From contig NC_049996.1 in the NCBI RefSeq assembly GCF_000003815.2, forward strand, positions 13,945,929 to 14,009,928: 64,000 nt of DNA. Direction: 5' to 3'. The position numbers and the translations under genes are program-made. Every line of letters starts with the position of its first letter. Within the stretch, counting starts at the first letter, position 1. Of the stretch, positions 7,185 through 48,507 are shown in pieces. Source of the stretch: Branchiostoma floridae (taxonomy: Eukaryota; Chordata; Leptocardii; Amphioxiformes; Branchiostomatidae). The notes beneath the pieces are model-generated. The model searched no databases and had not been told where the DNA came from. It saw only the letters and a program-made list of their open reading frames with translations.

Positions 7185-8600
7185 TTCATTAGTTGTTTAA
7201 TGTATGAGTATGGCAATGGAACCTTCTAAAGAAGGCATTTAGATCATTAAAATCGATGGCAGTTCCCAGATCATCTCGCTAGGAAGGCAGTGTATACGAC
7301 TACAGAGGAAAAGGAACTGTGCACCTATGGACTGTGGTCGGATGAGGAGAACGAGGAGAGATGTAGTACAATTTAACTCATTAGAGCTTTGCAGGGCCAC
7401 ACTTTATATCACTGACCTAGGCAACCCTGCAGCAAAAGGTAGACATAATGTAACAAGAAAGCTTTTAAAAAAAGCTGGCCGGGGCGCATTTGGAAGGACT
7501 ACCTCAAAATTTCATGTTGTGTTCCAGTAAAATGTGCATCATTATTAAACTAGAAGTTTATATCTAAAATCTATGGGAAGTTGGCTGGAAACCTTTGTTC
7601 ACTGGTATAATTGGATTTTCCGGCGTACTTTTGTGGGCGGAATTGTATCCCTTGTGTGCGCTGTGTGCCGGATATAAAAATCGTAAAAGAAACTCCGGTG
7701 CGAGACCACAGCCAAAGGCGGGAAGAGGTCCCGGATGTGCATTGTCGTTCTTTCTTCGTGACAGAAATTTCACAGGCAGACATGGTACGAATATGTAATG
7801 AACAGATTATGGACGGTCAATACTTCTCAAGCTTCTGAATCGTTTGGATATGAAAATTATCGTGCTGAAGATATTTATACGTGTCTGGGGGATCCTACCA
7901 GACAACTTGTATAACCAATCAGAAACCAGTCTGCGATTCTCCGCCAATCAACGATCAAATTGGCGTGTTGCTTTCTACCACGTCCGTAATAGGGATGTCT
8001 GAATCTTAATTTGCATACGGCAGCATATAAACATGTTATGGTGGGTCCGGTGAGGCCGGAGTTGCGTCCTTGACTGGTTTGCGTGGGGTGCGGATCCATT
8101 GTGTACAGGTTTGTGTCCGATTTGGTGATTTGATAGAAAGAAATAACAATTTATGGAGTAGAGTTTGTTAAGCGAAATGTTTCTAGTTTGGTGATTTTGT
8201 GAGGTAAGGTTTGTTGTGGTGTATTTTTCTTAGAATTTTTTTTTGTGTAACACGTGTTTGGTCGATGTTTTGTTGGGCGTGATGACGGCAGAGGTTTTGC
8301 ACAATGTTGTGCAGGATGTAGGTGTAATGGGAATGCAGAGGTCAAGATGTAAATTCTCCTAATTAGTTGTAAAGAACAAAGAGTTCAGTGGTAGTGGTAT
8401 GCATAATTTAAGATCAATATATTAATAGCATTGTGACGCTGTTATATATACTGTTATGGCATGTTTTGCATGGGTAATTTGCAGATATATATCTATATTA
8501 TAGGCATGTTTATGAAAGTAATTTATCGTTTGGCACGAATTTTTTGCGGGTATTTAATTTATTGTTTTGTTTAATGTTTCAATATGTAACTTATATGTTT
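7185..8600. other. Non-coding stretch left of the RPA-like gene
   Basis: No convincing coding exon. At 7498-7530 there is a nearly identical copy of a short piece of the Helitron ORF (see 20299-20330), probably an old transposon scrap. The 7860-8600 part is T-rich on plus and presumably holds the promoter and 5' leader of the RPA-like gene; no defined promoter element can be named. The left border of the Helitron was not located. Confidence 0.4.
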
Positions 8601-8609
8601 ATTTTTTAG

Positions 8610-8692
8610 GTGTGAGTTGGACTGTCAGGTTGACTGAGGGACGACGGGACGCTAGATTCTTGGTCGTTTTGTTAGCAGTGTCTTGTGCTAAG
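8610..8692 (+). other. Possible non-coding 5' leader exon of the RPA-like gene
   Basis: Bounded by an acceptor-like TTTTTTAG (8608-8609) and a good donor AAG|GTATGTG (8693). It holds no long open frame. Splicing this leader to the acceptor TATTTTAG at about 8966 would place the coding ATG (8968) one base into the next exon. This is inference from splice consensus only. Confidence 0.3.
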
Positions 8693-8967
8693 GTATGTGC
8701 ACACTTTTAGGTGGTGTGGGTGTGTTAAGTAGTTTTATTAGTTTGAAACGATGTAGGTAAAGTTTTTTAATCAAATTGTTGCTATGGTAAAAGCGGTAGT
8801 GTGACTTGTTATTTTTGTATTACTTTTACATAGTATAGTGGGAGGTGTGGGGTATTTTGAGCAGTGAGAATGTCAAATATTTGAGGTTGTAGTGGGTATG
8901 ATCTAAGAGCTATTTTGAATAGTTATGCAGCGATATATTAATGAGATTTTTTTGTTCATATTTTAGG

Positions 8968-9945
8968 ATGGAGACACCATCGGAGATGTCGGGATATGTG
9001 CACAACGTGTCGCCAATGAAAGACGGGGCAAAGTCAAAGTTTTTCCGGTTTGATTTTCAAACTTCAGAAGACGAGTCTAGGAAAGGAATCTGTTTTAGTC
9101 CTCAGAAGAGGAGTTTCTTTTGTGAGAAAGAACAGAGCAGCAGCCCATGCAAAATCAGTAAAGTGAGCAGTTGTTCGATGAGATCAAGCGACTTTGTGGT
9201 TAATGAGAAGAGTTCCGTGGAGTCGACAGCAGATGTGGGATTTCCAGCAAAACGACCTAGTATTAGGTCTGTAAGTGTTAAGGACATTAGCTACCTCTCT
9301 GTGAATGATGTTGTAAGAGTCAATGTGAAGGTGCTTTCCATTGATAAAACAGAGAAAGTTACAGTTAACTCAGGTGATGAGCGAGAGAAGACAGATGTTA
9401 TCGTAGGTGACACAAGTGGAGCTGTTCGCTTGTGTGTTTGGCAGCCACATGTGTTAGAGTTAGGGCGTAGCTATGGTGTGGACGCTAAAGTTAAGTTGTT
9501 TGCCAGAAGACGATTTCTGAGCACGTTTCCTGAGTCAGTGGTGAACGAAGTAGGTCCTATATATGCCCCAGATGGGATTCAACAGATAGACCAGGTCAGA
9601 GCAACCGGTACAATCATTGGAAGTCAAGTACTTAGCAGGTTTTACAAATGTAACTCATGTAAAAGGAAGATCGATCCGACAGAAACAAAGTTTCTGTGTT
9701 GCCCTCACTGCAACATGAAGCAGTTGCGAGAGCGATCCAAGGAAGAAATGATTGTGAAAGTTGTTGTTGATGATCATGGTAAACATGTACATTTAACATG
9801 TTTTTCCAGTATCGTATCTACAATTATTGGTGAAGATTCATTGGCAATGAAGAGTGACGATGTTGAGGAGAAGTTGTTGGAACAAGAGGAAGTGGAATTG
9901 ATGTATGATGCATTCAGCAATACTGTGAATTCTGTTGGGGATTAG
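8968..9945 (+). CDS. RPA-like single-stranded DNA-binding protein of the Helitron
   Basis: 325 residues. Residues 1-100 are Ser/Lys-rich and probably disordered. Residues about 105-200 read as an OB fold of the replication protein A large-subunit type (VKDISYLSVNDVVRVNVKV, then DVIVGDTSGAVRLCVW). Then comes a zinc ribbon, C228-x2-C231 and C245-x2-C248 (YKCNSC and CCPHC), followed by MIVKVVVDDHGKHVHLTCF. The start is placed at METPSEMSG because the upstream in-frame ATG at 8941 lies inside a likely intron, before the acceptor TATTTTAG. RPA-like proteins are known accessory genes of Helitrons in plants and some animals, where they are thought to protect the displaced strand. It is convergent with the Rep/helicase ORF about 5 kb to the right. 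The open frame is intact. Confidence 0.8.
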   Translation: METPSEMSGYVHNVSPMKDGAKSKFFRFDFQTSEDESRKGICFSPQKRSFFCEKEQSSSPCKISKVSSCSMRSSDFVVNEKSSVESTADVGFPAKRPSIRSVSVKDISYLSVNDVVRVNVKVLSIDKTEKVTVNSGDEREKTDVIVGDTSGAVRLCVWQPHVLELGRSYGVDAKVKLFARRRFLSTFPESVVNEVGPIYAPDGIQQIDQVRATGTIIGSQVLSRFYKCNSCKRKIDPTETKFLCCPHCNMKQLRERSKEEMIVKVVVDDHGKHVHLTCFSSIVSTIIGEDSLAMKSDDVEEKLLEQEEVELMYDAFSNTVNSVGD

Positions 9946-10000
9946 TTGATGCATGTTATGATACCAATATTGGTGTTTTTATTGTATGTTTTAGTTTTTT

Positions 10001-10935
10001 AAATTGATCCATCAGAGGTAAAGATTTTGTGTTGCCTTTTTTGCCATATGAAGCAGTTGCAAGATCAATGCAAGGAAGAAATGGTTGTGGAAGTTGTTGT
10101 GGATGATCATGGTAAACCAGTACATTTGTCATGTTTTTTCAGTATTATATTTACAATTATAGTTGTAGGTTGATTGCCAATGAAGAGTGACAATGTTGAG
10201 GTATGATGCTATTGATGTATGGTGCATAGAGCAATACTTTTTGTTTTGTTGGTGATTAGTTGGTGCATGTTATGATACCAGTATTGTTTTTTTTTTCTTG
10301 TATGTTGTATTTTTTTAAATTGATTCATCAGAGATAAAGATTTTGTGTTGCCTTTTTTGCCATATGAAGCAGTTGCAAGATCAATGCAAGGAAGAAATGG
10401 TTGTGGAAGTTGTTGTGGATGATCATGGTAAACCAGTACATTTGTCATGTTTTTTCAGTATTATATTTACAATTATAGTTGTAGGTTGATTGCCAATGAA
10501 GAGTGACAATGTTGAGGTATGATGCTATTGATGTATGATGCATAGAGCAATACTTTTTGTTTTGTGTGATTAGTTGGTGCATGTTATGATACCAATATTG
10601 ATTTTTTTTGTATGTTTTAGTTTTTTTAAATTGATCCATCAGAGATAAAGATTTTGTGTTGCCTTTATTGCAATATGAAGCAGTTGCAAGATCAATGCAA
10701 GGAAGAAATGGTTGGGAAAGTTGTTCTGGATGATCATGGTAAACCAGTACATTTGTCATGTTTTTTCAGTATTATATTTACAATCATTGTTGTAGATTGA
10801 TTGCCAATGAAGAGTGACAATGTTGAGGTATGATGCTATTGATGTATGATGCATAGAGCAATATTGTTTTCTTTGTGATTAGTTGGTGCATGTTATGATA
10901 GCAATATTGATTTTTTTTCTTGTATGTTTTAGTTG
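10001..10935 (+). pseudogene. Three decayed tandem copies of the 3' part of the RPA-like gene
   Basis: Units of about 310-316 bp at 10001-10316, 10317-10627 and 10628-10935. Each repeats, with changes, the RPA-like gene from the zinc-ribbon region (ATGAAGCAGTTGC, GATGATCATGGTAAA) through its stop and 3' flank (TGCATGTTATGATA). All have lost part of the segment between the GATGTTGAGG motif and the C-terminus and carry in-frame stops, so they are not translatable as RPA. The copies resemble each other more than the intact gene, suggesting that one truncated duplicate was amplified. Confidence 0.8.
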
Positions 10936-11562
10936 GTTTTTCAGCTGAAAGTTGTCATCGTCTTGAGCATGTTGTTAAGCTCTGCAGGACTCTTTTTCAC
11001 TCAAGTTCATAGGTGCGCAAGATTTGTATGTTGACGCCTTTACTGCTGGAGTGGCAGACATAGTTGAGTGTGGTTCAGGGTTTCCAGGATAAGGCTTTCC
11101 TTATTGTTATCCGACAACATTTTGTCAAAAAGAAAAAGTCTATATCAAAACAAAGCAAAAATTGATGCAAATGATGCATTCCTATTCTGATCAAAAAGCG
11201 ATCACACAAAAAAAACGATCACAACGGCCCAAACTGTGTACCTCTGAACCACTTAGGAGGAATTACATGTAATCACCTGTAAACACAAATTTCAGTTCCT
11301 ATAAAAATCACACATATCACTTCCCGACCTCGATTTAGTTGTTGCATGTTATGATAACAATATTGATTTTTTCTTGTATGTTTTAGATGGTTTTTCAGCT
11401 GAAAGTTGTCATCGTCTTGAGCATGTTGTTAAGCTCTGCAGGACTCTTTTTCACTCAAGTTCATAGGTGCGCAAGATTTGTATGTTGACGCCTTTACTGC
11501 TGGAGTGGCAGACATAGTTGAGTGTGGTTCAGGGTTTCCAGGATAAGGCTTTCCTTATTGTT
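10877..11562. repeat. ~230-bp direct repeat separated by a ~225-bp spacer
   Basis: The segment beginning TTGGTGCATGTTATGATAG and containing TTCAGCTGAAAGTTGTCATC runs 10877-11108 and recurs almost unchanged at about 11336-11562. The spacer 11109-11335 is A-rich, shows no ORF and shares nothing obvious with its neighbours. It could be an insertion into a duplicated unit. It lies inside the Helitron between the RPA copies and the minisatellite. Confidence 0.7.
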
Positions 11563-13734
11563 AAGTCTCTTTAGCGTTATAATGTACAACCCTACGTGTT
11601 TGAAATCATGAAAGTTGTAGGATGTACAAAGAGTGAGGAGACTTTTGTTATATTTTTGTTATGAGGCCTTGAGGCCTTTGGTTAAGTTATCTTATGTTAG
11701 TTACGTGGTTTTGAGGAATTTAGTTAAGCCAGAGTCACTGTTGCAGATATTGCTAAGTGTGTTACATGGTTTTGATGATAAGGCTTTTGTTATTGTAAGT
11801 GTCTTTTAGTGTTCATAATGTTTACCTAAGTGTTTGAAATCATGAAAGTTGTAGGATGTACAAGGAGTGAAAACACTTTTGGTATACTTTTGTTAGTTAT
11901 GATATATATATATATCAATGGTTGAAGATGGACCAGTTTGTCATTGTGACATCATGTTGGTTATATGTTGTTTGGCTACAGAATTAAAGTTGGTTATAAG
12001 AAAGTTTTCAATGTGTTGTTTTGAAATCATTTGTTGGAGTAAAAATTAGGTAGTGAACCGTTTTTCAGTTTTTAGTTATGCTACTATAGTGATTCAGTTG
12101 TTTGAATTTATGTTTTGAACATGTCCAAATTAATGTAGATGGCGAAAGGCAAGAGTTCAACTGGGAAAAAATGCTGGTAAATGACAGGAATACCAAGGTG
12201 GTATAGTGACTTTGTCGTAGTAAATACTGGGTTTTAGAACACGGTGGCTCATGCAAGCTTTTTATGGCATTTTATTTGGGCTGGCACTGTTGTGAATTTC
12301 TGTGGGGTTCAGTAGCCAGGGTGCCATCATCTTAAGACGTTGCTGGTCTTCTAGTAGTGGAGCAGATAACATCAAATATTGGAGGAATTTTTCAAATTGT
12401 GATACAACTTGGTACAAATATTCATCTGACATTTGATGATGTATGTGGGCTACATGATTTGGTTTTTGTCGGGCCCCTAGGGGCACTTTTTGGTACTGCA
12501 GGAGACCTAGTGGGCTTTGTGGTAGGAGAACACAGTTTTTGCCAAATGGGGATGTCTATAGTTCAGGAGGTTGAAGTGAGAACGTTTGAGGCTTCAAAAT
12601 TTATAGTAGGGTGCAGAAGCAAGCTACAAAAATTAAGTATGTTTCAGTGCAGGGTACAATCTACAAATATGTGAAAATCAGCATAAATTTGCTGATTTGT
12701 TTCCTTCTAAAACCCTTTCTAGTAGCGCTATGCGGGGGTCATGTGAACTGCAGGTGAGGCGAAGTATTAGGCGGTAACAGAATCCAGGTGCTAGTTGATG
12801 CGAGGCGAACAAACACCATAATTCAAATTATTCGGTCGCAAACTTGACGCATTCCTCTACCATTCAACACATTTTTCACCTCCCTCTTATAAACAGAAGA
12901 ATGTCTGCAGCTTTTGTATTGTATTGCATTACTTTGTGCCTGAACTACGGTGTTTGCCAATAAATACTGTGTTATCTCCTCTTGTAAGCATGGTACAGTC
13001 ATGATTTTTGTGTGGTAGACTGCTGTTTGAGTAAGAAAGAAGTGTCGTAAGTTTGTTTCTGTTAGAAGCTTGTGTTGGAACTGCAGGGGCGTTTTTTGCG
13101 TGTATATATCAATGGTATATAGACACTTTTAGGCATTTTAAAAATCTGAAGTTGTTCAGCTTCTACTTTGGCACTGGCAAAAAAATGCACGTATAGTTTG
13201 AATGCAAGATGCTAGGAGGACCAAACTTATGTCCCTTTCTGTTCACCACAGCAGCATTCTACCATATCAAAATCATGTGCTTGTATTACAATTTGAAGAT
13301 GTTTGACTTAAGTTGATGGCAATTAGGTAAATGGGGATGTAATTGAGTAAATGGGGATGTAAGTGTGTTTTAATTCCAATGAGACTTAATAGACAAGAAT
13401 GTTACTATGGTTAGGAAATATATGTAGTCAAGAAAGAAGATGAAGACAAGATGCAAGGAGTGTTGTTAATTGTATATCAGAACTTTAATTGTAGAGCTAT
13501 CATTGAGGAATATGTACATATACCATTGAAGGTGCAGTATGATCTCTACAGATACAGTGATTTATATGAAAGTACCTTTTTGGAGTAATTTTTTGCGTGA
13601 TTGACGCGGCAATGGTGAAACTACAGGCAATGTGGATTCCATTGAAGCAGGATTCATGTTGCAATATTTGAACGGTGGAAATCACATTGAAAGCACGGTT
13701 GGAGTTTAAGTGCTGTTGTCGGTTGTGCAGGTGC
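11563..13734. other. Helitron interior without a recognised gene
   Basis: AT-rich DNA with many short ORFs on both strands, none with a recognisable domain. Short related motifs recur (for example GAAATCATGAAAGTTGTAGG at about 11605 and 11838), so part of it is internally repetitive. No promoter, RNA gene or splice-supported exon could be identified. Confidence 0.4.
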
Positions 13735-14420
13735 TGCATGGACAGTTGGAGTTCAGGTAGTGATGTCAGGTGCACAGCTAGTGCATGCAGTTAAGAAGTT
13801 CAGGTGCTGATGTCAGGTGTGCAGGAACTGTATGCAGGTATGAAGTTCAGGTGCTGCTGTCAGTTGCGCAGGTACTGCATGCACGGGTGGAGTTCAGGTG
13901 CTGATGTCAGGTGCACAGCTACTGTATGCAGGTATGAAGTTCAGGTGCTGCTGTCAGTTGCGCAGGTACTGCATGCACGGTTGGAGTTCAGGTGCTGATG
14001 TCAGGTGCACAGCTACTGTATGCAGGTATGAAGTTCAGGTGCTGCTGTCAGTTGCGCAGGTATTGCATGCACGTTTGGAGTTCAGGTGCTGATGTCAGCT
14101 GCACAGGTACTGCATGCACGGTTGGAGTTCAGGTGCTGATGTCAGGTGCGCAGGTACTGCATGCACGGTTGGAGTTCAGGTGCTGATGTCAGCTGCACAG
14201 GTACTGCATGCACGTTTGGAGTTCAGGTGCTGCTGTCAGGTGTGCAGGTACTGCATGCACGGTTGGAGTTCAGGTGCTGATGTCAGCTGCACAGGTACTG
14301 CATGCACGTTTGGAGTTCAGGTGCTGCTGTCAGGTGTGCAGGTACTGTATGCACGGTTGGAGTTCAGGTGCTGCTGTTAGGTCTACAGGTACTGCATGCA
14401 TGGTTGGAGTTCAGGTATTT
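13735..14420. repeat. 47-bp minisatellite, about 14 units
   Basis: Unit core GTTGGAGTTCAGGTGCTG followed by an ATGTCAGGTGCACAGGTAC-like stretch and GCATGCAC. Identical blocks recur every 47 bp, and in the left half every 94 bp, so a two-unit higher-order repeat is present. Units vary between GATGTCAG and GCTGTCAG. Since 47 is not a multiple of 3, overlapping Cys/Trp-rich frames stay open by chance; they are not genes. Confidence 0.9.
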
Positions 14421-14947
14421 TGGGGGGGGGCAACATGTTGTGAACCATAATGCCAAGAAAAGAGAAACAGGCTCATTTCTTTTATAATTTTTCAGTTTTG
14501 GTTGCATAATAGAGGTTGAATGCCCCTTTCGGACTGAAAAAAGGTGGTTGCTGGTTGGAGTTTAGGGTTGCTTGCTAGGGAGGGGGTCATAACTATGTAA
14601 AAACGGACGGGACTGTTTCAATGTGGTTGCATACGAGAGTTGGTTGCTTGCGAGGGGTGGTTGCATATAGAGGTTTGACTGTACATGTTAGCTGTTCCTA
14701 TTGTTGATACATGAAAATATATTGTCATTTCTGTATATGTAGGGGTTGTTACATTTAGCAAGTTTGTGATGTAACTTATAAGTTGCCGTGCATGATTCGT
14801 AGCATTGGGGAAATGACAGCACTCAGAGAATTGTAAGTTGTCATGCCTATCATAAAAGTATATGTATGTCATATTTTATCTGTTACTATGACATGTGTTC
14901 CAGTTTGTAGGGTCAGGTACATGTAGATAGTGTATACTGTAATATGA

Positions 14948-17900
14948 TTATGTGCCTTCTGAGTGTTCAGGCTTTGACTCTTCTACAATAGTTTTAGTTA
15001 GTCTGTCCATTTCTTTTATCACGGATGCAAATACTGAAATCTTGCTTGGTTTAAAGTCTAGTAATGCTAAGCCATCAAGTGAGGTAATTCTGCTGAGTGC
15101 AACATAGATTTGCCCAGGGCTGAACACTGTTTTTCCAATGTCAAGTACTGCTTTTGATAAAGAAAGGCCCTGTACCTTGTGTACTGTTGAGGCATATGAA
15201 AGTTGAAGTGGAAATTGGGTTCGATTGAAAACTGTGCTATAGCGTGCAAAAAATCTTGCTGTGATTGGTGCAATAAGAATAGCGTTGTTCTTGCAAGGCT
15301 GTTGTATTGTGCGGCCGACATTGGGGTTATCAAACTTAACATAAACTCCAGTAACGGTTTGTTCATTAAGGTTTGATTGTTCATTAGTTTCAGAGTTTTG
15401 AAACTCAAAGTCTTCGACAGTGCCTTGTGCACCATTTACAAGACCATCTTCACTTAGAATATTTCTCAACAACATAACACGGCATCCTTTAGCAAGATGA
15501 ATGTCCTTTTCAAGACCAGCTGTTTCACTTGAATCTGTTGATATGAGTTCATTTGTAGGAATGTCTTTTGCATTTACAGGACCATCAATCATTTCATCAT
15601 TTGCTTTAAGTACATGTACATGGGTATTTGTTTGACAGTGCAGTCTTTCAAGTTGCTCTTTATTGTACTGTGCAGCTTGCTTTCTTGTTGGAAAGATATG
15701 TAGAGCTGATGAAAATACAGAATGTTGAATTTCTGACTTTGTCTTGAGACGAGTTGAAAGGAGTGCAATATCTGGATTTGTTGGAAGTCCAATACGTACT
15801 CTGTTCAAAAGCTCTGTGTACTCTTTGTCACCATTTTGTCTGTGATTCACTGTCAGAAATAGGGGCTTAAAGAATGATCTCCACAAATGAGTAAGACATT
15901 CTTCCTGATTTTGTAAATCCTCAAATATAAATTTTCCAAACACAGGTTTCAACTGGTAGAAATCACCAAAGGCAATGATATTCAGGTTTCCAAAGTAGCT
16001 ATGTTGGTCACTGGTAGTGTCTTTGATCTCTGATAGGCGGAGGTGAATATGTTTTAGTCTATCATTGCTTATCATACTGATTTCATCGATGATAATTGTA
16101 TGAACATTGTTGAATTTGCGTCGAAGCTGCGACAGTTTTTCAGCACTGAGTGGTAGGTAGTCAGTTTTTCCTCGTCGGGTATGATCAACAGGTAGTGATA
16201 GAGCTGAATGTACCGTGGAGCCACCTATGTTGTAAGAAGCGACGCCTGTCGGCGCGGTAAGTACGACAGGAGTTGTTGGGTGGTTTGAAATTCTGATCAA
16301 GTATTCATTGATTACTTTGATAAGAAAACTTTTGCCACAGCCTGCTCCTCCTGTTACGAAAAGTCGCAAAGGTTGTGGTTTGAAATTGCTTTCATTAGGT
16401 GCTTGTCTTTGCAATTCAACAAAATGTGCCTTGATTGTGTTAAACACGTGCTGTTGGTCATGTGACATGTTCCTTAGTGCTTGGTAGAATTCATCATCAG
16501 TCATTGTGTTGCGGGTCAAAGCATTCCATGTCAGTGATTCATCATGTAGCATAGTAAGATTTTCAATTGTGCTGTCAACATTGTTGGTGGTAGTTTGACT
16601 GGTACCTGCTGCTTGATGTGCATTTCGTGCTGTCCATTGTGGATCAAGATAAAGCCCTTCAGTGTCAAATTCGTCGTTGATTTGTAGCTGTTGATGAGTC
16701 ACATTGGGTGCAAGAGTATCAGCAATTGATGAAAGATCATTTGACAGCAGGCGTACTTGCATTATAGCTTGCTCTATTTCTGATGTGAAGTGCATGTGTT
16801 GTGCAAGGCTGTAGTCAAACAGATTCTTTTTTGCAATGAAAGCATCTTGGGCAGAAGTGTAGTCACTAAGTATGTCATTTTCATTCCTCCAAGGGCAGAA
16901 TAGATATAACAGACCATAGAAATAGTCATCTCCATTTGCAGAACTCAGTCTTGTACCTCTGACACATGCATATTTGCGTCGTTTTTTTATCCATTTGTCA
17001 CACTGTTGCAACTTGAAACATTCACAGGCACTTGATGGTTCTGTTGAGCTCACAAAGTATGATGCAGCAAATGTGTATAATGACATTTTATCCCAGGGGT
17101 CACCATGAGGTCTCATTGCATAGTATTGGGCAGTGCCCTGAACGAAAATGTCTGTTGATGTATCATCAAGTTTTGCAAGTTCTTCTCTAGGTTTCAGCAG
17201 GCGCGTTCTACTCTTGGGTGGCTTTGTGTTGATTGAGACAGTTAGTCTTGAGGATCTTATCAGTGGTAGGTTTGCAAGTTTGTATCCAACTTCTTGTGCG
17301 CTGAGCAAACGATGACTAAGCACTGTATTGCCAATTTTGGCTAATCGTGTTCTTTGTGTACTGTCACGTGGGAGGTCAGACAGACCAGCAGAAATGGCCG
17401 TCTGAAGATTTTCGGGCTCAGCTTTTGAAATGTACATGCATGCATAGTAAGCAGCACCATACTTGGAGCCAACCATTTGTATGTCCATGTTGGATTGCAT
17501 GTGCATGAGCAATGTTGGGTTGTACGCATTTATCCAGATGTCTTGTTGTGTTCGTTTTGTGACATAAAATTGTGCACTTCTGTTTGGATCAACATCTAGT
17601 CTGAGCCTTGTTGTATCTGAAACTTCTCGAGGGAAGTAAAATCTGCAGTTCACTCGTCTCTTTTTACATGTGTTGGTGTGATGATGAGTCTGGTATTTGG
17701 ACACCAGTTCATACAAGAGGGAGTTCTTGTCATCTGGCAGTTGTGTGGAAAGATATTTGTCAATGAATGCAGGAGCATTTTGTCTTCCTTGTATGGTATC
17801 AAGGTCAGGGGCATCTTCAACCCAGAACATACAGTGCAAATGTGGAGAACCTCTTAATTGGAATTCCACACGAATCCAGTGATCTTTGATTCTACCAATG

Positions 17901-20900
17901 GGATGTTGTGGACTCTTCAGTATGAAGCGTAGAAGTGCATCAGTGCGTCTATTAAAGTGTATCGCACACATGACAGGGTCTGATCTCATTAGGTTCCATT
18001 TGTCTTGTTGTGGTAATGCTTTAGCTTCTTCATAGGTCAGGTCAGGATTCAGGGTCATGAACAATTCTGGCCAGTTTAAATCATTAGCAGACACAGTGAC
18101 AAACCATGTTGGTGGTCCAATAGTGTTTATTTTTGCTAGCAAGTTTAGCAGTTGGTCCTTGAAGTAAGCTGCTGTTCCACGTATATTCTTCATAAAAGTG
18201 TATGATGTGCTTTCAACATGTTGATCAATTTCATGATGCAGATCGCCTGCTGTTAGTGGCTGTGCTATGGATTGTGATCTAACATTACTCTGCTTTTGCA
18301 TTCTACATACAATGGATATCTGACTGTACAATTTCTTGATTTCATACGAGTTCAAGGCAAAGAAGAGCCATGGGATGTTTTTTCTCCAGCAATCATTGAT
18401 ATTGAGCAAACGTGATTGGAAGTACTGTAAGTCTGTTAGTTGTACATCACGCGTCTGTTTGAAGCCATTTTTACCATATGGGTATAACTGTGGAAAACAG
18501 TGTTCCTCAAGATCAGTCTCTTTAAATATGCTTTGTGGTGGTGATGTTTCACGTGGTAGTGATATCACTGGGACATTGTCTGTTACATTCTGCAACAGAG
18601 ATTGTAACTGGACATTTGGATTAATGTAGTTACAGGGAAAAGCTGAGAGTTCTTGGACAGTAGAAGGTGCACTTGAGAAGTCTGGTTCATTGGCGTCTGT
18701 GATCATTGGATTGAATTCACTTGACTTTTTTACCCAGTTTTCAAAGGTAGCTATGTTCACATGTGAATATAGATGATTATGCGTTACCAGCCATGTAAGA
18801 GCTTCATGCATTTTGGAAAATCGTACAATGTGTTGTGGGTCTGTTCTTTGTGTTTTACTTTCATTTGTCTGACAAGGGTGTACTATTACTAGCCCAGCTG
18901 TATCTTGGCTATGTGGTAACAGTTGGCAAGTAGTTTCAATGTTGGTAGGGAAACTTATGGCTTGACCTTGTTCACCAAATTGTCCACCTGGTAATACAAT
19001 TAACTTGATGAAGGTGTATTTCAAACTGACAAGTCTTGTTTCCATTCTACTGAGTTGTTTCAGGCATGTTGGAATGTCACCTGGATCCATATTGTTAGTC
19101 CAAGCATTGGGTATGGGTTTGTCTTTTTCAAGACAAATCAAACACTTTGAACAGAGATGATGTTGACCAGAAATATCATTGACTATTTTGTCTATGACAG
19201 CATTGTTGCAGTTTCGCACTTGGTCATGAAATAACAATTGTCTACATATGCTACAGTAGTACTTTGGCTGCTGTTTTATATAGCAATGAAATGCAGGAAA
19301 GTCTGATTTGTATTGTTCACTGGTATAGTCTATGCTATGTTCTCTAACATATTTTGTAGCCAATGTTTTTCTCACTCTATCACAGTTTTTCCTCTGTCGT
19401 TGCGTTTTTTCTTGTGAAGATTCTTGTTCAGCTCTTTTTGCTTTGCTAGCTTTGCGTGATGTCCTTTGTTTTGCAAGTCTTTCGGCTTTTTGCTCAGGGG
19501 TCTCATTTGCTTGTTTTGCTTTGTATGATGCTCTTCGTTTTGCAAGTCTATCGTCTTTTTGCTCAGGGGTCTCATTTGCTCGTTTTGCTCTTTCCTGTGC
19601 AAGTCTATCTGCTTTTTGCTCAGTTGTCTCATCTGCCTGTTTTGCTTTGTATGAAGCTCTTCGTTTTGCAAGTCTTTCATCTTTTTGCTCACGGGTCTCA
19701 TTTGCTTGTTTTGCTTTGTATGATGTTCTTCGTTTTGCAAGTCTTTCATCTTTTTCCTCAGGGGTCTCATTTGCTCGTTTTGCTTTATATGATGCTCTTT
19801 GCTGTGCTGCTTTTTGCTCACAGGTCTCATTTGCTTTCTTTGCTTTGTATGATGTTCTTTGTTCTGCAAGACTCTCTGTCTTCTGTTGATAGGTTTGTTT
19901 TTCTTGTTTGTCCTTGCATATTGCGCTTTGGATTGCAAGACCTTGCACTTTTTTATCATTTAAATTTGATGCTGCATTTGGTGACATTACTAATTGATTC
20001 AAGAGGCCTTCATTCCTGTTCTCTGGCATAGCACTTGGATGTTTGCTTGTGGTGCATGGCACAATGTTTTTCCCAGTACTTTGGTTACAATGTGGTGCAA
20101 ATGGAAATGCTGTGTTTGGTTGTTGTAGGTTCTCTTTCGTAGATACAAACTCTGGTTTAACCAAGGTGTATGTGTGTTGTTGTTGAACTTGAAAGCAGTT
20201 TTCTGACTCAATCATAGAAGAAACATTGCTAGTCAGATTGATAATGTGTATACCAGTAGGTTCAACTGATAAGAAAACATTTTCTGCTTGTACTGGGACA
20301 ACCTCAAAATTGCATGTTGTGTTCCAGTTAAGTTGTTGCAAGAATGAAACTAGATTGCTGTTTGAACTGTGCATGCTTAAAGTAGAAGTGCCATGGCTAT
20401 CTGGCAATGCTGTTATGGGACTTCTGGCATGTGAGTCATAAACAAAATACTTGTTATCAGCGTGCAACAATGCTACTGTTGAACCAGTTATTCCATGTGC
20501 TGTTATGAAAAGACAAGTGTTGGATTCAGCAAATGCTGCTTCTAGGGCTTTCTTTAAGGTGTAATAAGGATAGACTGCTTCTGTGGCAAATATGTCTCCA
20601 GTGTAAGACTCTTTTATTGATACACGTACAGTATTGTTGTAAAGTTGCAAATAGTCTGGAATATCATCAACGGAGAGGAACTCCACACCAGATCTTAGTG
20701 ATGGTTTTATGTAGGTGTATAGTGCATCTCCTTGAAAAAGTACACCATCAAGGTCTGTACTTGTCCAGGTAATTGCTTGTCTGCAAGTACTGTGGTTAAC
20801 AACTGCCATTAAAGCATTTGCAGTGCATTGTTTGCCTCTATTATCTCCACTGAAAATGATGTCACCTTGGTGGTATTTTCCCGATAAAATAGATTCACAC

Positions 20901-20902
20901 AT
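14948..20902 (-). CDS. Helitron Rep/helicase with N-terminal cysteine-protease-like domain (intact, 1984 aa)
   Basis: One uninterrupted frame starting MCESILSGK. Residues 1-205: papain-fold protease-like region with GKQCTANAL (Q25, C26) and FVYDSHARS (D156, H158); the Gln-Cys plus Asp-x-His layout resembles large-tegument-type deubiquitinases. Residues about 345-490: near-identical basic repeats (ASYKAKQANETPEQK type). Residues 540-590: cysteine-rich (YYCSICRQ, CSKCLIC), like the domain often preceding animal Helitron Reps. Residues 930-1160: Helitron HUH replication initiator with RGSPHLHCMFW (H1021, H1023) and the two-tyrosine motif AYYACMYISK (Y1153, Y1157). Residues 1510-1984: PIF1-like helicase with Walker A GGAGCGKS (K1524), Walker B IIIDEIS, GDFYQLKPV, NHRQ and a C-terminal VALSR motif. 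The Rep should nick and join the element's ends and the helicase should unwind it during rolling-circle transposition. All recognised catalytic residues are present. The protease assignment is by motif only. Confidence 0.92.
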   Translation of the reverse strand: MCESILSGKYHQGDIIFSGDNRGKQCTANALMAVVNHSTCRQAITWTSTDLDGVLFQGDALYTYIKPSLRSGVEFLSVDDIPDYLQLYNNTVRVSIKESYTGDIFATEAVYPYYTLKKALEAAFAESNTCLFITAHGITGSTVALLHADNKYFVYDSHARSPITALPDSHGTSTLSMHSSNSNLVSFLQQLNWNTTCNFEVVPVQAENVFLSVEPTGIHIINLTSNVSSMIESENCFQVQQQHTYTLVKPEFVSTKENLQQPNTAFPFAPHCNQSTGKNIVPCTTSKHPSAMPENRNEGLLNQLVMSPNAASNLNDKKVQGLAIQSAICKDKQEKQTYQQKTESLAEQRTSYKAKKANETCEQKAAQQRASYKAKRANETPEEKDERLAKRRTSYKAKQANETREQKDERLAKRRASYKAKQADETTEQKADRLAQERAKRANETPEQKDDRLAKRRASYKAKQANETPEQKAERLAKQRTSRKASKAKRAEQESSQEKTQRQRKNCDRVRKTLATKYVREHSIDYTSEQYKSDFPAFHCYIKQQPKYYCSICRQLLFHDQVRNCNNAVIDKIVNDISGQHHLCSKCLICLEKDKPIPNAWTNNMDPGDIPTCLKQLSRMETRLVSLKYTFIKLIVLPGGQFGEQGQAISFPTNIETTCQLLPHSQDTAGLVIVHPCQTNESKTQRTDPQHIVRFSKMHEALTWLVTHNHLYSHVNIATFENWVKKSSEFNPMITDANEPDFSSAPSTVQELSAFPCNYINPNVQLQSLLQNVTDNVPVISLPRETSPPQSIFKETDLEEHCFPQLYPYGKNGFKQTRDVQLTDLQYFQSRLLNINDCWRKNIPWLFFALNSYEIKKLYSQISIVCRMQKQSNVRSQSIAQPLTAGDLHHEIDQHVESTSYTFMKNIRGTAAYFKDQLLNLLAKINTIGPPTWFVTVSANDLNWPELFMTLNPDLTYEEAKALPQQDKWNLMRSDPVMCAIHFNRRTDALLRFILKSPQHPIGRIKDHWIRVEFQLRGSPHLHCMFWVEDAPDLDTIQGRQNAPAFIDKYLSTQLPDDKNSLLYELVSKYQTHHHTNTCKKRRVNCRFYFPREVSDTTRLRLDVDPNRSAQFYVTKRTQQDIWINAYNPTLLMHMQSNMDIQMVGSKYGAAYYACMYISKAEPENLQTAISAGLSDLPRDSTQRTRLAKIGNTVLSHRLLSAQEVGYKLANLPLIRSSRLTVSINTKPPKSRTRLLKPREELAKLDDTSTDIFVQGTAQYYAMRPHGDPWDKMSLYTFAASYFVSSTEPSSACECFKLQQCDKWIKKRRKYACVRGTRLSSANGDDYFYGLLYLFCPWRNENDILSDYTSAQDAFIAKKNLFDYSLAQHMHFTSEIEQAIMQVRLLSNDLSSIADTLAPNVTHQQLQINDEFDTEGLYLDPQWTARNAHQAAGTSQTTTNNVDSTIENLTMLHDESLTWNALTRNTMTDDEFYQALRNMSHDQQHVFNTIKAHFVELQRQAPNESNFKPQPLRLFVTGGAGCGKSFLIKVINEYLIRISNHPTTPVVLTAPTGVASYNIGGSTVHSALSLPVDHTRRGKTDYLPLSAEKLSQLRRKFNNVHTIIIDEISMISNDRLKHIHLRLSEIKDTTSDQHSYFGNLNIIAFGDFYQLKPVFGKFIFEDLQNQEECLTHLWRSFFKPLFLTVNHRQNGDKEYTELLNRVRIGLPTNPDIALLSTRLKTKSEIQHSVFSSALHIFPTRKQAAQYNKEQLERLHCQTNTHVHVLKANDEMIDGPVNAKDIPTNELISTDSSETAGLEKDIHLAKGCRVMLLRNILSEDGLVNGAQGTVEDFEFQNSETNEQSNLNEQTVTGVYVKFDNPNVGRTIQQPCKNNAILIAPITARFFARYSTVFNRTQFPLQLSYASTVHKVQGLSLSKAVLDIGKTVFSPGQIYVALSRITSLDGLALLDFKPSKISVFASVIKEMDRLTKTIVEESKPEHSEGT

Positions 20903-20940
20903 TGTTCACAATATATGTGTTCTTTGCTTGACTTTATTTG

Positions 20941-21255
20941 CACAATGCACAGTGCTCAGTGGCACGATTGAGTCTGGTGTGTGCAAAATGCACAGTGCTC
21001 AATGGCACGATTGGTCTGGTGTGTGCAAAATGCACAGTGCTCAATGGCACGATTGGTCTGGTGTGTGCAAAATGCACAGTGCTCAATGGCACGATAGGTC
21101 TGGTGTGTGCAAAATGCACAGTGCTCAATGGCACGATAGGTCTGGTGTGTGCAAAATGCACAGTGCTCAGTGGCACAATTGGTCTGGTGTGTGCAAAATG
21201 CAGTGCTCAGTGGCACGATTGAGTCTGGTATGTGCAAAATGCACAGTGATCAATG
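20941..21255. repeat. 42-bp tandem repeat just upstream of the Rep/helicase start
   Basis: About seven copies, the last ones degenerate, of a 42-bp unit containing GCACAGTGCTCAATGGCACG and GGTCTGGTGTGTGCAAAAT. The array begins roughly 40 bp upstream of the ATG of the minus-strand ORF, where the promoter or 5' end of the element should be. Because 42 is a multiple of 3, spurious ORFs run through it on both strands. Confidence 0.9.
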
Positions 21256-22138
21256 ATCTGTTAATAGGTCTCAAGGTCTAATTTGGTTGGATCAAGGACT
21301 CTCTTTCAAACCTCTTTGGTTGGATGCAAAATGTAATGCGTAGATTTCAGCAGAAGAAGTATAAATGTGTACTGTGTAAAATCTTATTGAGTACAGACTT
21401 TTGCTAGCTGTAAGTTTCTGTATATTACTGTGTCACTTGTATATATAGCAGAGAACAGTCTAAGGCGTCACTGAAACAGAAAGAAAATATTGTCTTGATC
21501 ACATAACATCTTACTAGTACCAACAAAAAGCAAAAATCTACAAAAGTTCAGGTGTGACATCTTGCCAACTGCTTTGCTGATTGTTTAACAGTTAGCTACA
21601 ATCCGTTGTTTTCTACTATTCTTTGGAAATGTATGTTTTAATGTATTAGAATCCGATCCATCTTTTCAACTTGTACGATATTTTTACAATCAAAAATGCC
21701 CTGCATAATGCCTCGCATCGGCTCAAGCACAGTGCACCATTAAACTATCTAAATTCTCGTCAATCCCCACACACTGGTTTTACTAAAAAAACTATATACC
21801 GTTCCTTGGAAATATGTTTCAATGTGTCCGAATTCATGATCACTATCTTTTCAAATTGTACGTTACTCTTACGATCGAAAATGTCCTGCAGGACCTCCTG
21901 CAGCTGCATATATAGACGCACGCCCCCCTCCCACCCGCACGTAAACTGTTCCAATCGTTGCACAATAAACTTGACTGTATACCCTCCACAAAATCTTTCG
22001 TCAAATGTCGTGCTCATTTTACTCACATGACACTACGCCTTAGAATGTAATGTTATATTTTAATACATCCGAATTCCAGAAAGATAACTTTACAAACTGT
22101 ACCAATTTCTGTACGATAAAAATCTCACCTCCTCCGCA
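21256..22138. other. Intergenic; about three diverged ~200-bp repeats at 21620-22130
   Basis: Three loosely similar blocks, each with a TGTTTTAATGT-like start, then a TTTTCAA.TTGTAC motif, then TACGATCGAAAATG or a variant. No coding potential recognised. The Helitron's right border should lie somewhere between 21.2 and 23 kb but was not located. Confidence 0.4.
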
Positions 22139-22148
22139 CCGTCAACGC

Positions 22149-22373
22149 CCGTGAGGGTATTTACCGGAATAACCCGAAATGACCCGGAATAACCCGGAAT
22201 AACCGTAATATTTCTTGTTCCCATGGCCATATATACATTATTTTATGCCAAAATATTGCATTCTGCGATCTTAACTTATCAAAGCACACTGTATTTCGGT
22301 AGCTTTCATCCTTTATTAAGGTTATTCCGGGTTATTCCGGGTTATTCCGGGTTATTCCGCTAAATACCCGGAC
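22149..22373. mobile_element. Short inverted-repeat element with CCGGAATAAC-type tandem motifs in its ends
   Basis: Left arm GGGTATTTACCGGAATAACC followed by further CCGGAATAAC-like decamers. The right arm is the inverted counterpart: GGTTATTCCG repeated four times, then CTAAATACCC. The interior is about 110 bp. A 10-bp direct repeat CCGTCAACGC lies at 22139-22148 and 22374-22383 and may be a target duplication, although a few non-matching bases separate it from the TIR ends. Confidence 0.7.
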
Positions 22374-22544
22374 CCGTCAACGCTATCGCAAAATGAACCG
22401 TGCGATTTAACGACAACTCCTCAAATGTTACATGACCAGTGTTTTACTGCAAATCAAGAAACATTTTCCTTTCCTAGACTTTGCTAATGAGCGCTGCAAT
22501 GTTTTCTGTACGAGTAGAGGTCATGGATAAACAGTATTCTTACA

Positions 22545-22671
22545 ACGTTTATTTGAAGGGCTAAGAAGGGCTGAGAATTGTCGTAAAAACGCACGGTACA
22601 TTGCGTTTATTTGAAGGGCTGAGAAGGGCTGAGAATTGTCGTAAAAACGCACGGTACATTTTGCGACCATA
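22545..22671. repeat. Tandem duplication, ~57-bp unit, two copies
   Basis: A unit containing GTTTATTTGAAGGGCT and AGAATTGTCGTAAAAACGC is present twice head to tail with few differences. Non-coding context. Confidence 0.8.
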
Positions 22672-23755
22672 GCAGACCCATCCAAGGACGAACCATTAAA
22701 CCGGGCACAAAGCCGGGCGCCTTCGGCGCCCCGGCAAAAATGCAAAGATTTGGCGGACATGCAACCAGTATCTCATTAGTTGAACATCTAATTGCGATGG
22801 ATAGTCAGAATCGTCATCTTCTTGTAAAGGCAGCGTTTTCAAGTGTCTGAAACATGTCTACCTCGTCAGGGTTTTTCGACATCAGTCCGTGCCCTTTTCA
22901 GGCCGATGACGTACGTGACAGCTCACACTGCCACCTCAAGCAAGGTGAGAAAAAATAGTTTTGACAACCCAACCATGATTATTACTCTCTATTCTCCAAG
23001 CAGAGATTGGATCGCGGGGATTTTAGTGGTCGGCCTCGAGTTCCCCCTATGGGAGGGAGAGGTATAAAATCCCGGCAACTAACGTTATATTTCCCGAGAC
23101 AGAACCTTTGATTGGAAAATGCAAAATCATTTCATTTTCATGTTATGTCATAAGTCGAAAGTGGTTGGAGCATTTTTGTAAAAGGACTACATTGTATCAG
23201 ACAAATTCAATATCTGCCCTGAAAAAAAGATTTTCTTTGTTGCTTCTCGGATTCTGCTGTCCTATTTATACCAATTTGAAGAAAAATTTTCACTACCTCT
23301 CCTGACTAACGTTACCAAATAAACTATGGGCCTCAAATTCTGGAATGTGTATTATTGTATTTCAGAATTGGGGCTTTGCTAATTGAGGACCACCATAAAA
23401 ATATTGATTCCTTGCATAAAATATGCCAAGGAAATCCGAAAAATTATTTGTTAAATCTGTTGTTATTTATGTTGCACAACTTGAGTAAGCCCCTCGATCT
23501 CTCCACCCTGGACGTTTTGCAAAAAAACTTTGATTTTAATTTTTTTCCGAGAAGCAACAAATTAAATTGGTGTGGAAAAGTTTAATTTCCACATGTAGTC
23601 TGAATTGTATTACTGAAAAGTTGATTCCAAACTAATAACATTGAGTGTTGTGAAAATGCCATATGCCATCAGTCACGTGCCATAACATATATATCTCTGC
23701 TCCCAACCCCACCCCTCCATCTTAGCTCAAACAGTATCAACCAACAACCCTTCAG
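22672..23755. other. Stretch with no recognised gene
   Basis: No domain-bearing ORF. A TCTCCAAGCAGAGATTGG motif at about 22993 resembles the TIR family described for 26847 and 42364. A short frame at 23355-23585 follows an acceptor-like TATTTCAG but has no recognisable product. Upstream exons of the gene at 23756 might lie here but could not be identified. Confidence 0.4.
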
Positions 23756-25862
23756 GAAGTGATGTTGCACAGGAACACTCTACATGCCAGTCTCACAACA
23801 ACAACATCTCAACAGTCCTCAAAATCATTGATGACATTGTCAACGAGTCTATCGTAGATGTCCAGAATGCAATGAAAGAAGAGCAGGGGGATCTTGGTCA
23901 TCACCATGGCAACTATGTGCCTAATGAACCATCTGTGAGTGAGTCCTCACACCCAGGAGGAGTACCTGTTTCCACTGTCCACACAAACCGACCCAGCAGC
24001 ATGCCTTGTGTGGTAAGAACACTGGAGTACCGGCCAACTCCCATAGCAGAGCTGAAGAGGCGCCAAGCTGCTGAGGTCAATGTTATGGCTCAGGAACATC
24101 CCAGCTCTGAATATGACCCCACATGTCCATCCACAATCATAGGGTACTGCCCAACTCCCATCACTGATTTGCACACGAGTGACACACAGCCAGAACAAGC
24201 AGCGAACAAGTATCAAGAGGCTTTTGAATATCGTGGAACAGACATGGAGTATGATCCTATAATGAATTACCGATGTTCGACTTTCGCAAAACAACAAAAG
24301 AAGAAATTGCCGGAAATCTCTGAGAAAGACTCTGAAGATGTTGGGTCAGCAAAGCCAGTCAGGAAAGAATTCAAAACTGGACAAGATCACCATGCTTCAG
24401 ACAGTTGTCAGGACAATTCTGATCCCATGGAAGTCCCTGTGGTAGACGATTTAAGTGATAATGACAAAATAAAGCTCCAAATTTCTGAATCAGATTTAAA
24501 CAATAATGAGCAAATGAATGTCACAGGGTCAGAGACAGACTTGAACAATAATAATGGGACAAACCTCAGAGGCTCAGAACCAGAAATGGCATCACTGACC
24601 AGCTTTGGTCATTCAATAACAGAAAACAAAATGGTGGCATTGATCTCAGACAGGGACAAGGATACAAAACAGCTGATCCAGTCAAAAAGCTCCAGTAAGG
24701 AAACTGAAGTATCAGGACAACTCAACAAACTGGTTGGTGACTTTAACGTTTCCTCTGTATTGGAAAGAGGTGACATCAAAAAAAGAAAAACCTCAAAATT
24801 TCTGAAAGATGGAAACATTTGTGAAGACCAGTCTCAGACCCCTAAAGTGAAAAGATTGAAGAAAAAAAGAGTACTGAATCTGTTACATGATAATCTATTA
24901 AAGTCAAGTTCAAAATTAGACACCACAGACAAAATCTCTTCGAAACTAAGGAGACGTGTGAAGGTGTTTGATGAGGAGGCTTGTCCCGAATATTTGCCTC
25001 AGGGAGAGAAAAATATTCACCTCAGGATGAGATGGCTTTTCCCGAACATTCGCCTCAGGATGAGAAGACTTGTCCTGAATATACTCCTCAGGATGAGAAA
25101 ACTTGTTCTGAATATTCACCTCAGGATGAGATGGCTTTTCTCGAACATTCTCCTCAGGATGAGAAGACTTGTCCTGAATATACTCCTCAGGATGAGAAAA
25201 CTTGTTCTGAATATTCACCTCAGGATGAGATGGCTTTTCTCGAACATTCTCCTCAGGATGAGAAGACTTGTCCTGAATATTTGCCTCATGAGAGAGAAGA
25301 TGACAACTCCGTTGACTTGGTGTCTGAAGAAGACCTCTCTAATGGTCTGTCCATTTGGGAAGAGAAAAGGAAATCAAAGAAAGCAAGAGATGAGGATATG
25401 CCAGATGGAGTGTATGTCAGCAGTACATCAGGTGAATATAACACAGTGTATGGAAAGTTAGTGAAAAAGGAAAGAAAGCAAATGGAACACTTAAAACATT
25501 CAGTATCCCTAACAAAGGGTCCATTCATCAAGCTGACAGATAGCTATAATCCTAAACTGGCTGAAAAAATGGAATGGATAAAAACAAAGGACACACACAA
25601 ACAAAGACAAGAGTTCTCAGTAAAAGGGAAAGGAAGATCATGTTACAGCTGCTGTTCATACTCTGGGTCCAAGAAAGGAGCGGGCTATGAGGAAGGCAGA
25701 GAAATGGGGGCACAGGAACCTCCAAGGTCACGGATGAGATTAACTCAAAAATCTAGCCGGCCATATGACCTGAGTTTTCAGGACTCAAACAGTGATTCAT
25801 TCTACAGGTACGAGGAAGAAATTAACCCATTAATGTTATACATCAGCAGCAGCTCAACGTAA
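23756..25862 (+). CDS. REXO1-like N-terminal region (partial or broken gene)
   Basis: Reading starts after a possible acceptor CCTTCAG (23755) without a clear initiator; the first in-frame ATG is 23872. Visible motifs are a helix-like VLKIIDDIVNESIVDVQNAM, two Tyr-Pro-Thr-Pro elements (LEYRPTPIAELKRR, GYCPTPITDL) and MEYDPIMNY. This spacing resembles the N-terminal Elongin-A-binding half of REXO1, a predicted 3'-5' RNA exonuclease. A long acidic and Ser-rich low-complexity stretch follows. At 24985-25300 are eight 33-bp units encoding PQDEKTCPEYT-type 11-mers. The 11-mers are read one frame off from the first part; the frame changes at an A5 run (25009-25013). The second frame continues to a stop at 25862; a donor-like CAG|GTACGAG near 25808 could instead splice on. 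No exonuclease domain is seen downstream. The family assignment is tentative. Confidence 0.45.
24985..25300. repeat. 33-bp coding minisatellite with 99-bp higher-order period
   Basis: Eight 33-bp units around CCTCAGGATGAGA, arranged as three unit types (coding MAF-EHS, KTCPEYT and KTCSEYS variants) that repeat together every 99 bp. It lies within the REXO1-like frame and keeps frame because 33 is a multiple of 3. Confidence 0.9.
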
Positions 25863-26621
25863 AGGAGTTGCCCAAAAACCTTGTCTACCCAGCACTGGAG
25901 TCTTCACTATGGAAAACATCAAAACAATTTGTAGTGAATGATAGAATGTACAAGTCTATGTCCAGCCAATTTGAAAAGTCTTTATTTGCAGAATCAAATA
26001 TATGCTTTATTGTTTAACTCTCAATAGTTAAATCACAAATGCATGTACATGACTGTACTTAACATGGTGATATTTGTTGATATTGCAATGAACAATCATT
26101 AAACAGTTTAGAACTGAGTCACACTTACACATCGTCTTCACTCACTTCACAATATTTCATATTTAATCAAAACTACAATTTGTATAACTAACTGGTCCAG
26201 GTATGAGGCATAAATTGTCCTCTTGAATTCGAACACCAAAACCTCCGGTCATTACAACACAGAATGTTTAAATACACTTGTTGACAGCAGATGATCCAAA
26301 AAATGCAACAGGAAGTAAGAAAAAATAACACCATCAAGTGTGGCAGCCTTATTCTTCATTGTGTGATTGGAGCATGTATGCGTTGCAAAATCCTGCTAAA
26401 CCAGCTAATATGATTGGTACCTAACATATTTGGAAATGATCTGTAAACTTCTTAGGTCCCTGCTATATGCACAATTTAATTCATAATTTATAGTCTTAAT
26501 ACAGATGAAAGGAAATTTCTGGTCCCCAGGAATCTAAGACTCCCCTAAGCCTTGTCATCGCTGCTCCAGTGAGGGATGATCCATTTCACAGCCGGGGGTA
26601 GATGTACAGGGCTGATCCATT
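25863..26621. other. Convergent 3' intergenic region
   Basis: Separates the plus-strand REXO1-like frame from the minus-strand aminopeptidase. AT-rich, no ORF of note. At 26560-26640 the last ~36 bp of the aminopeptidase exon and its stop region are present twice in tandem (GCCGGGGGTAGATGTAC in both copies). Confidence 0.5.
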
Positions 26622-47329: not shown

Positions 47330-48507
47330 TTCCTCTTGTTTTGGAGTTTTGCTGACACACCCGTCCTAATGGCCCGTGCTTAAGGACGAAACGAGGCGAG
47401 TCACGTGATTCAACAACAGTTGTTGTAAGACCTGTTTTACAGGTGATTTTGTATGCAAATCAGGATAGTTGGTTTGTTTTTATGTTTTTACGACAGTGAA
47501 GCACACAAAGCTAAGCACTGCAAGACTTGGAAATTTTTCTCCATCATTCTACATATTTCTATGCGTGATATGTTTATAGCAAGTTTAGTAAGTTTTACTG
47601 CCTAGTTTCATTAGTGTAATTAAGTACAGACTCCCGAGTACACTTGTGCAGCGACAGGAATCATGGGTAACATGACAAAGGTGAAGGCATCTTATACATA
47701 ATTCAAGTACGTCTTGTTATGCAAATGATCGAGACAGTGGTGGAAAATAGGGGTGGGTGCCGGTACAGAATGTTATAAATGAAGTTGTGAAATAAAAATA
47801 AAAAATTCCTTTTTTTGTTCACAAAATTTTATTATCGTCTCTATCCTATCGTCTAGATATAGATCTAGAAATTTTTCAAACTCGTTGAGACCAGTTTGGT
47901 ATATAAAAAGAGTACTAGTATGCAGGTCAAACACGATTGGTATGTCGCTACACTAATTCATTATTTATTCATTTTACAAGGACTGCATATAACGTCCTTG
48001 ATTATTGATAACATCGCAGGTGCTCCGAAGAGCGCCTTCACTCGAAGCGCTCGGTACTGCATCAGGTATACATTTGCTAATTAAAAATAAACAGACAAAA
48101 GCACAAACAAATAATCAAGTATTGTGTTTATACCTTGCTATGAAAATATGACCCTGTCTTGCAATTGCTGATTTTGTGTGTAAACAATCACTGTTACATC
48201 CCTCTGTAAATGTATACAGACTAGTTCTATTGCATTGACCATATATGGTTTGACATATTACGTGACTGTGACGTAAGTATTGTCCGTCATGTTGGGTGAT
48301 TAAACCTGGACACTACCGGGTGTATCATAGAAGCTGTATATGTAATTACTGCCACATAACTAACAGATACAAATCAAGAGGCCTGAGTTCTTCAAGTTTA
48401 ACGTGATATGATCGTGGTCACTGCGTTCAAACATTCTACATTTGATTCTGCTATTCACTCTAATAAAAGGCGTACTTTCATTGTATAAAAAATACCAAAA
48501 CGTGATT
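47330..48507. other. Intergenic region upstream of Reeler gene A
   Basis: Should contain the promoter of gene A. No coding exon, RNA gene or clear element recognised. Confidence 0.4.

Follow-up and report, generated by a model that had tools for sequence, protein, structure and literature searches.

Deubiquitinase domains of the herpesvirus tegument type (VTD) are known from the zebrafish Helitrons DrT1 and DrT2, in which a domain with a Cys and an Asp-x-His motif shares one frame with the Rep-helicase (Erven et al., 2022, PMC9741609; structure 8ADD); the text of that report has VTD Helitrons carrying a C-terminal AP endonuclease and being Helentrons. Helentrons are marked by a signature in Rep motif 2, an S before PHxH (Thomas et al., 2014, PMC4067079), and Helitron2 elements are described as having asymmetric inverted repeats of 8-15 bp, the 3' one lying 20-30 bp from the end, and as inserting after TTTT and before T or C, in one account between TTTT and T (PMC5148889). 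We analysed a window of 64,000 nt from Branchiostoma floridae (NC_049996.1, 13,945,929-14,009,928; window coordinates are used throughout) and searched the genome (513 Mb, 431 contigs) for relatives of what it contains. The window probably holds a young rolling-circle transposon of Helitron2 type, which encodes a single large Rep-helicase protein (RepHel) with an N-terminal VTD-type deubiquitinase whose predicted triad is intact (Table 1). VTD-bearing Helitrons were already published in 2022; what sets this element apart is that no endonuclease was found in it or in two sister families, and that its ends are of the Helitron2 kind.

The RepHel frame runs on the minus strand from an ATG at 20902, preceded two codons upstream by an in-frame stop, to a stop codon at 14948; 1984 stop-free codons would arise by chance in random equal-base sequence with a probability of about 4e-42. 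Pfam finds Herpes_teg_N at residues 11-161, STPR at 383-452, DUF6570 at 595-717, Helitron_like_N at 870-1025 and PIF1 at 1504-1693. Helraiser (7LCC) matches the Rep part at E 5.8e-8, in an alignment that takes in H1021-L-H1023 and Y1153-x3-Y1157. The Walker motifs, A (GCGKS, K1524) and B (D1606 E1607), are both intact, and neither varies across four aligned frames. An initial annotation, made from the letters alone, had described one open frame of this length with HUH, two-tyrosine, Walker A/B and helicase motifs, and Pfam, the 7LCC alignment and the frame alignment all bear it out; the Q25-C26 and D156-S-H158 that it reported lie exactly where it placed them. The strand, the ends of the element, the RPA-like gene and the STPR repeats are additions to that annotation. 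Among the scanned frames no herpesvirus family other than the tegument domain matched in Pfam, and single scans of a viral and a prokaryote collection found no relative.

The identity of the N-terminal domain comes from its match to DrT1-VTD2 (8ADD), the deubiquitinase of a zebrafish Helitron in which C322, D451 and H453 are required for activity (PMC9741609). Residues 8-175 align with 8ADD_A at E 5e-13 (46 identities in 161 aligned residues), with C26 opposite C322 and D156-S-H158 opposite the Asp-x-His motif of 8ADD, which in our hand numbering is one residue off the published number and by eye is the sole Asp-x-His within the aligned stretch of the chain. A profile built from three amphioxus families improves the match to 2.1e-16. 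The same profile reaches a herpesvirus tegument protein (6PPB, PF04843 family) at E 6.4e-4, in a list where an unrelated fimbrial chain stands at 0.0012; with the single protein this match is 0.024. Herpes_teg_N scores exceed the cut-off of 25 bits in the sister frames L004 (34.0) and L006 (29.9), and C26, D156 and H158 are invariant in all four aligned frames from the three families. Because the 8ADD match places the conserved triad on its catalytic motifs, the N-terminal domain is, by homology, a VTD-type deubiquitinase. The fused tegument-type cysteine protease proposed in the initial annotation is upheld by Pfam, 8ADD, the profile and the sister-frame scores; its remark that such a layout is less familiar in this place does not stand, as the arrangement had been described, assayed and crystallised by Erven et al. 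(2022; PMC9741609).

The sister proteins share the domain layout of the window protein, at 70-71% identity to it: L004 has a frame of 2033 amino acids (aa), and L006 and L007, near-identical to each other and on two contigs, have 1955 aa each. Across three between-family comparisons the ratio of nonsynonymous to synonymous change (dN/dS) is 0.08-0.11 in Rep, 0.12-0.18 in both the helicase and DUF6570, and 0.21-0.36 in the VTD. By this last range the VTD is maintained under purifying selection between families, and the linker and repeats much less so. The repeats themselves recur: a 23-residue period is present in all four families examined, and the window protein scores 31.5 bits with the STPRs model (cut-off 27) and matches the FMBP-1 structure 5D23 at E 7.6e-6. 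Elsewhere the Pfam STPR score varies, from 76.2 bits in L002 to 17.3 in L006, with L004 unlisted. We found no report of STPR and Helitron together in the open-access literature.

The ends of the element are set by edges common to its other genomic copies, with the 5' boundary uncertain by four bases (22736-22740) owing to a T-run. Read in the RepHel sense, the element begins with this T-run followed by GCCGGGGCGC and ends with GCGCCCCGGC CAGCTTTTTTTAAAAGCTTTCTTGTT; the two terminal repeats are 10 bp each and are inverted copies of each other, and hairpins are predicted at both ends (stability against shuffles, 5' region, z -1.99). Among copies with exact end matches, which leaves out copies such as L012, all 19 distinct 5' flanks have a T-run before the edge, and the 3' edge is followed by T in 15 of 18 cases, the window included, by A in two and by G in one. 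These flanks fit insertion between TTTT and T in the fashion reported for Helitron2 (PMC5148889). The 5'-TC and CTRR-3' ends of Helitron1 are absent, the element ending in T-run-GCCGGGG and CTTGTT. Ends chosen from base skew and Helitron1 rules, TCTCTGC at 21454 and CTGG at 7926, proved wrong, since other copies extend to 7452 and 22740. The G+T-rich stretch of the plus strand (about 8000-21400, with edges near 7961 and 21440) lies inside the true ends; at fourfold sites of the plus strand RepHel follows this skew (132 G, 63 C) and the RPA-like gene does not (16 G, 25 C). Near the 3' end, 36 bases at 7496-7531 are 92% identical, in the same orientation, to 20296-20331, just after the coding positions of the VTD triad. 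The right flank (22738-26472) matches a locus on contig C4 (L024) at 91.5%, and the match ends within the T-run at the element edge; L024 was considered as an empty site and rejected, its far side having no match to the left flank of the window.

In ends and content the element is Helitron2-like, and in its Rep motif it falls on the Helentron side. As in Helitron2 (Bao and Jurka, 2013, PMC3627910; FoHeli, PMC5148889), the terminal inverted repeats are asymmetric, with the 3' one placed 26 bp inside the element, each end has a predicted hairpin, the target is apparently a T-run, and no endonuclease was found; unlike here, the word "protease" is absent from the main texts of both papers, and FoHeli of Fusarium is described without RPA-like genes (PMC5148889). 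With Helentrons and proto-Helentrons (PMC4067079) the element shares the Rep motif 2 signature and, putatively, a separate RPA gene, and it differs from them in that no endonuclease was found and in the ends and target given there for proto-Helentrons (5'TT, 3'CTAG, A^T). From the zebrafish elements it differs in having one VTD, no OTU match in the RepHel frame (Pfam) and no endonuclease found, where DrT1 has two VTDs and DrT2 an OTU, and in its STPR repeats, which the text of that report does not mention (PMC9741609). The herpesvirus large tegument protease (PF04843; 6PPB) belongs to the same domain family, which here lies within a transposon protein.

It is possible, if somewhat doubtful, that the element is nested within Helentrons and that its endonuclease was lost or went unseen. 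The motif VEFQLRGSPHLH, invariant in four frames, bears the signature that Thomas et al. give for Helentrons (PMC4067079), and VTD Helitrons are said to carry an endonuclease (PMC9741609). Against this placement, Pfam finds no AP endonuclease in the RepHel frame, and the frames of the window, L004, L006 and L007, from three families, all end at the same place. Nor was one found in the interval from the RPA-like gene to RepHel, scanned on both strands, or at 7926-11000 and 20906-23705, scanned on the minus strand; these scans reached to within 474 bases of the left end of the element and, 5' of RepHel, took in the minus strand. The 1.5 kb that follow the sister genes L004 and L006 held none either. 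We set aside a SET_TTL match (E 1.5e-9, two frames) downstream of L006, as its best stretch falls on a tandem array there. Since the ends, too, are of the Helitron2 kind, we prefer assignment to Helitron2.

The second gene of the element, convergent with RepHel, encodes a putative RPA-like protein whose matches to OB-fold and zinc-ribbon profiles of single-stranded DNA binding all fall below curated cut-offs: Rep_fac-A_C at 22.8 bits against 28.5, and, in NCBIfam, SSB at E 1e-6 and rpa1 at 1.5e-4. A single-sequence AlphaFold model (pLDDT 32.2) is uninformative. Stop-free homologues of 351-365 aa and 32-34% identity lie no more than 6 kb from sister RepHel genes on C5 (L004), C15 (L003) and C18 (L043), on the RepHel strand in all three, as opposed to the opposite strand in the window. 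Judged by these homologues the RPA-like gene is common to at least four families, but not to all.

These parts suggest how the element may work. The HUH/two-tyrosine Rep would nick the element ends and the Pif1-like helicase would unwind the DNA, with the basic STPR repeats perhaps helping to hold it and the separate RPA-like protein coating the single strand. The VTD may strip ubiquitin chains, probably of K48 type, off the transposase or host proteins close to it, and the transposition complex would thereby escape degradation; Erven et al. suggested such sparing of the transposase or its partners for Helitron VTDs (PMC9741609). We consider it improbable that the protease instead processes the RepHel polyprotein itself or cuts a non-ubiquitin target. 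In its favour, the domain is by homology a papain-type cysteine protease. Against it, probes of ubiquitin and NEDD8 label the close relatives of the domain, and these enzymes cut chains of ubiquitin (PMC9741609). Moreover, the acidic residues D376/E377 of 8ADD, which have been linked to the ubiquitin tail in DrT1-VTD2 (PMC9741609), have acidic counterparts here in D79/D80. The self-cleavage raised in the initial annotation finds no support here, where no cleavage site was looked for; the characterised relatives cleave ubiquitin (PMC9741609).

Judging by its near-identical end copies at many places, the element is young. The 5' end (about 341 bp) recurs with 99-100% identity at no fewer than 37 places outside the window (40 of 306 candidates scored; one further match covers flank only), and the last 322 bp at the 3' end show no difference at any of the 40 places scored (236 candidates), a set that does not contain the window itself. 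From their positions, eleven end pairs were matched up, spanning 2.2-19 kb. The initial annotation had suggested recent activity, and these copies agree with it; they are not the old and diverged set that would have spoken for the opposite. Of 18 loci starting at the 5' end, eight looked truncated but run into N, L040 stops at a contig edge, L027 diverges into other sequence and L032 is an internal deletion. We therefore make no claim of one-ended copies. At the centre of one 14.3-kb copy 3001 of 3001 bases are N, and long copies may hide cores in such stretches.

Several observations weigh against the interpretation of a young Helitron2-type element with an intact VTD. In the Pfam scan of the window protein the Herpes_teg_N score, 24.1 bits, lies just below the cut-off of 25. 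A single-sequence AlphaFold model of the VTD (pLDDT 34.7) is uninformative on the papain-like fold with flipped triad that marks VTD enzymes and on the C26-H158 distance. In the linker dN/dS rises to 0.42-0.61 (the third comparison is saturated) and in the repeats to 0.41-1.2. The predicted 3' hairpin has no greater stability than shuffled sequence (z 0.06), and no empty insertion site was found. No RPA-like match stands near L006, L007 or L008 among 26 matches (29 candidates scored), which makes the partner not universal. The Rep-helicase core occurs at 100% identity at two places, the window and C309, and elsewhere at no more than 87% (22 of 22 candidates scored, 24 matches); the frame on C309 is split, and since only the window shows an unbroken 100% core, present mobility rests on few or N-hidden copies. 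That single unbroken core could be taken to mean a dead relic whose open frame survived by chance, but purifying selection between families, near-identical copies at many places and a second near-identical sister pair, L006/L007, on two contigs make this highly implausible.

The VTD also seems to persist in many shortened copies. The tegument model finds 70 places in the genome (72 candidates scored), the window included, all 70 above cut-off and stop-free, and has matches in none of 14 control genomes. The open frames around the domain recur in length (425 aa at 17 places, 386 at nine, 1022 at six and 283 at four; 61 of the 70 are under 1100 aa), although N runs can alter such lengths and, among the recurring ones, the sequence was read for the 1022-aa group (L009) only. 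These recurring lengths point to deletion-derived subfamilies. Eleven loci join 7773 to 17841, deleting the core, and the L009 product, of 1021 aa, breaks off within the HUH motif, its last residues being RGSPQ, and retains the VTD, STPR and DUF6570; it could therefore attach to the DNA of the element and rival the complete transposase there. The KP protein, which acts as a competitor of the P element transposase, offers a comparison. We think it unlikely that the deletion-derived subfamilies multiplied with an intact VTD and without the Rep-helicase core because the enzyme has a life of its own, through supply in trans or regulation. As the copies are near-identical, the absence of stops is no proof of selection on the short frames, and, short of expression evidence to the contrary, we read them as hitchhikers.

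Table 1. Features of the element in window coordinates; strands refer to the window.
Feature	Position	Strand	Remarks
Whole element	7452..22740	-	RepHel sense; about 15.29 kb; edges common to other genomic copies
5' asymmetric terminal inverted repeat GCCGGGGCGC	22726..22735	-	Overlaps 5' hairpin 22716-22730; sequence and predicted fold
3' asymmetric terminal inverted repeat GCGCCCCGGC	7478..7487	-	26 bp from 3' end; adjoins 3' hairpin 7460-7476
RepHel frame	14948..20902	-	1984 aa: VTD, linker, STPR repeats, DUF6570, Rep (HUH/Y2), Pif1-type helicase
VTD (tegument-type deubiquitinase) domain	20294..20902	-	Residues 1-203; predicted triad C26, D156, H158; 8ADD and PF04843 matches
STPR-type basic repeats	19403..19915	-	Residues ~330-500; 23-residue unit
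DUF6570	18752..19120	-	Residues 595-717; Pfam E 2e-19
Rep domain	17423..18295	-	VEFQLRGSPHLH motif and YACMY pair; Pfam, 7LCC, frame alignment
Pif1-like helicase	15053..16393	-	Residues 1504-1950; Pfam E 9.6e-26, PDB Pif1 chains
RPA-like single-stranded DNA-binding protein	8941..9945	+	334 aa; convergent with RepHel; sub-cut-off profile matches
316-bp tandem array	9897..10931	+	Holds three degenerate copies of the RPA-like gene's 3' part, two stops each
42-bp tandem array	20939..21255		Between element 5' end and RepHel start codon
47-bp tandem array	13693..14416		Lies 3' of RepHel; about 15 units; L002, L006, L007 and L008 have similar arrays (70-73%)

Outside the element, minus-strand stretches at 38215-39744 resemble what we take to be a DNA cross-link repair gene of SNM1A/DCLRE1A type, with a weak metallo-lactamase match (E 0.022), and 47009-47365 and 58057-58383 encode two similar, apparently secreted proteins that presumably belong with reeler-domain genes.

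We suggest that the amphioxus element widens the set of transposons with a herpesvirus-type deubiquitinase to elements without an endonuclease. No literature title on an amphioxus Helitron with a tegument domain stood among the matches listed. With a VTD present and no endonuclease found, the enzyme would not be tied to Helentrons, contrary to what the text of PMC9741609 holds, and this bears on the source of the domain in herpesviruses. A young family rich in copies, in which an RPA-like partner accompanies RepHel, would also suit a direct test of the role of the deubiquitinase in transposition.

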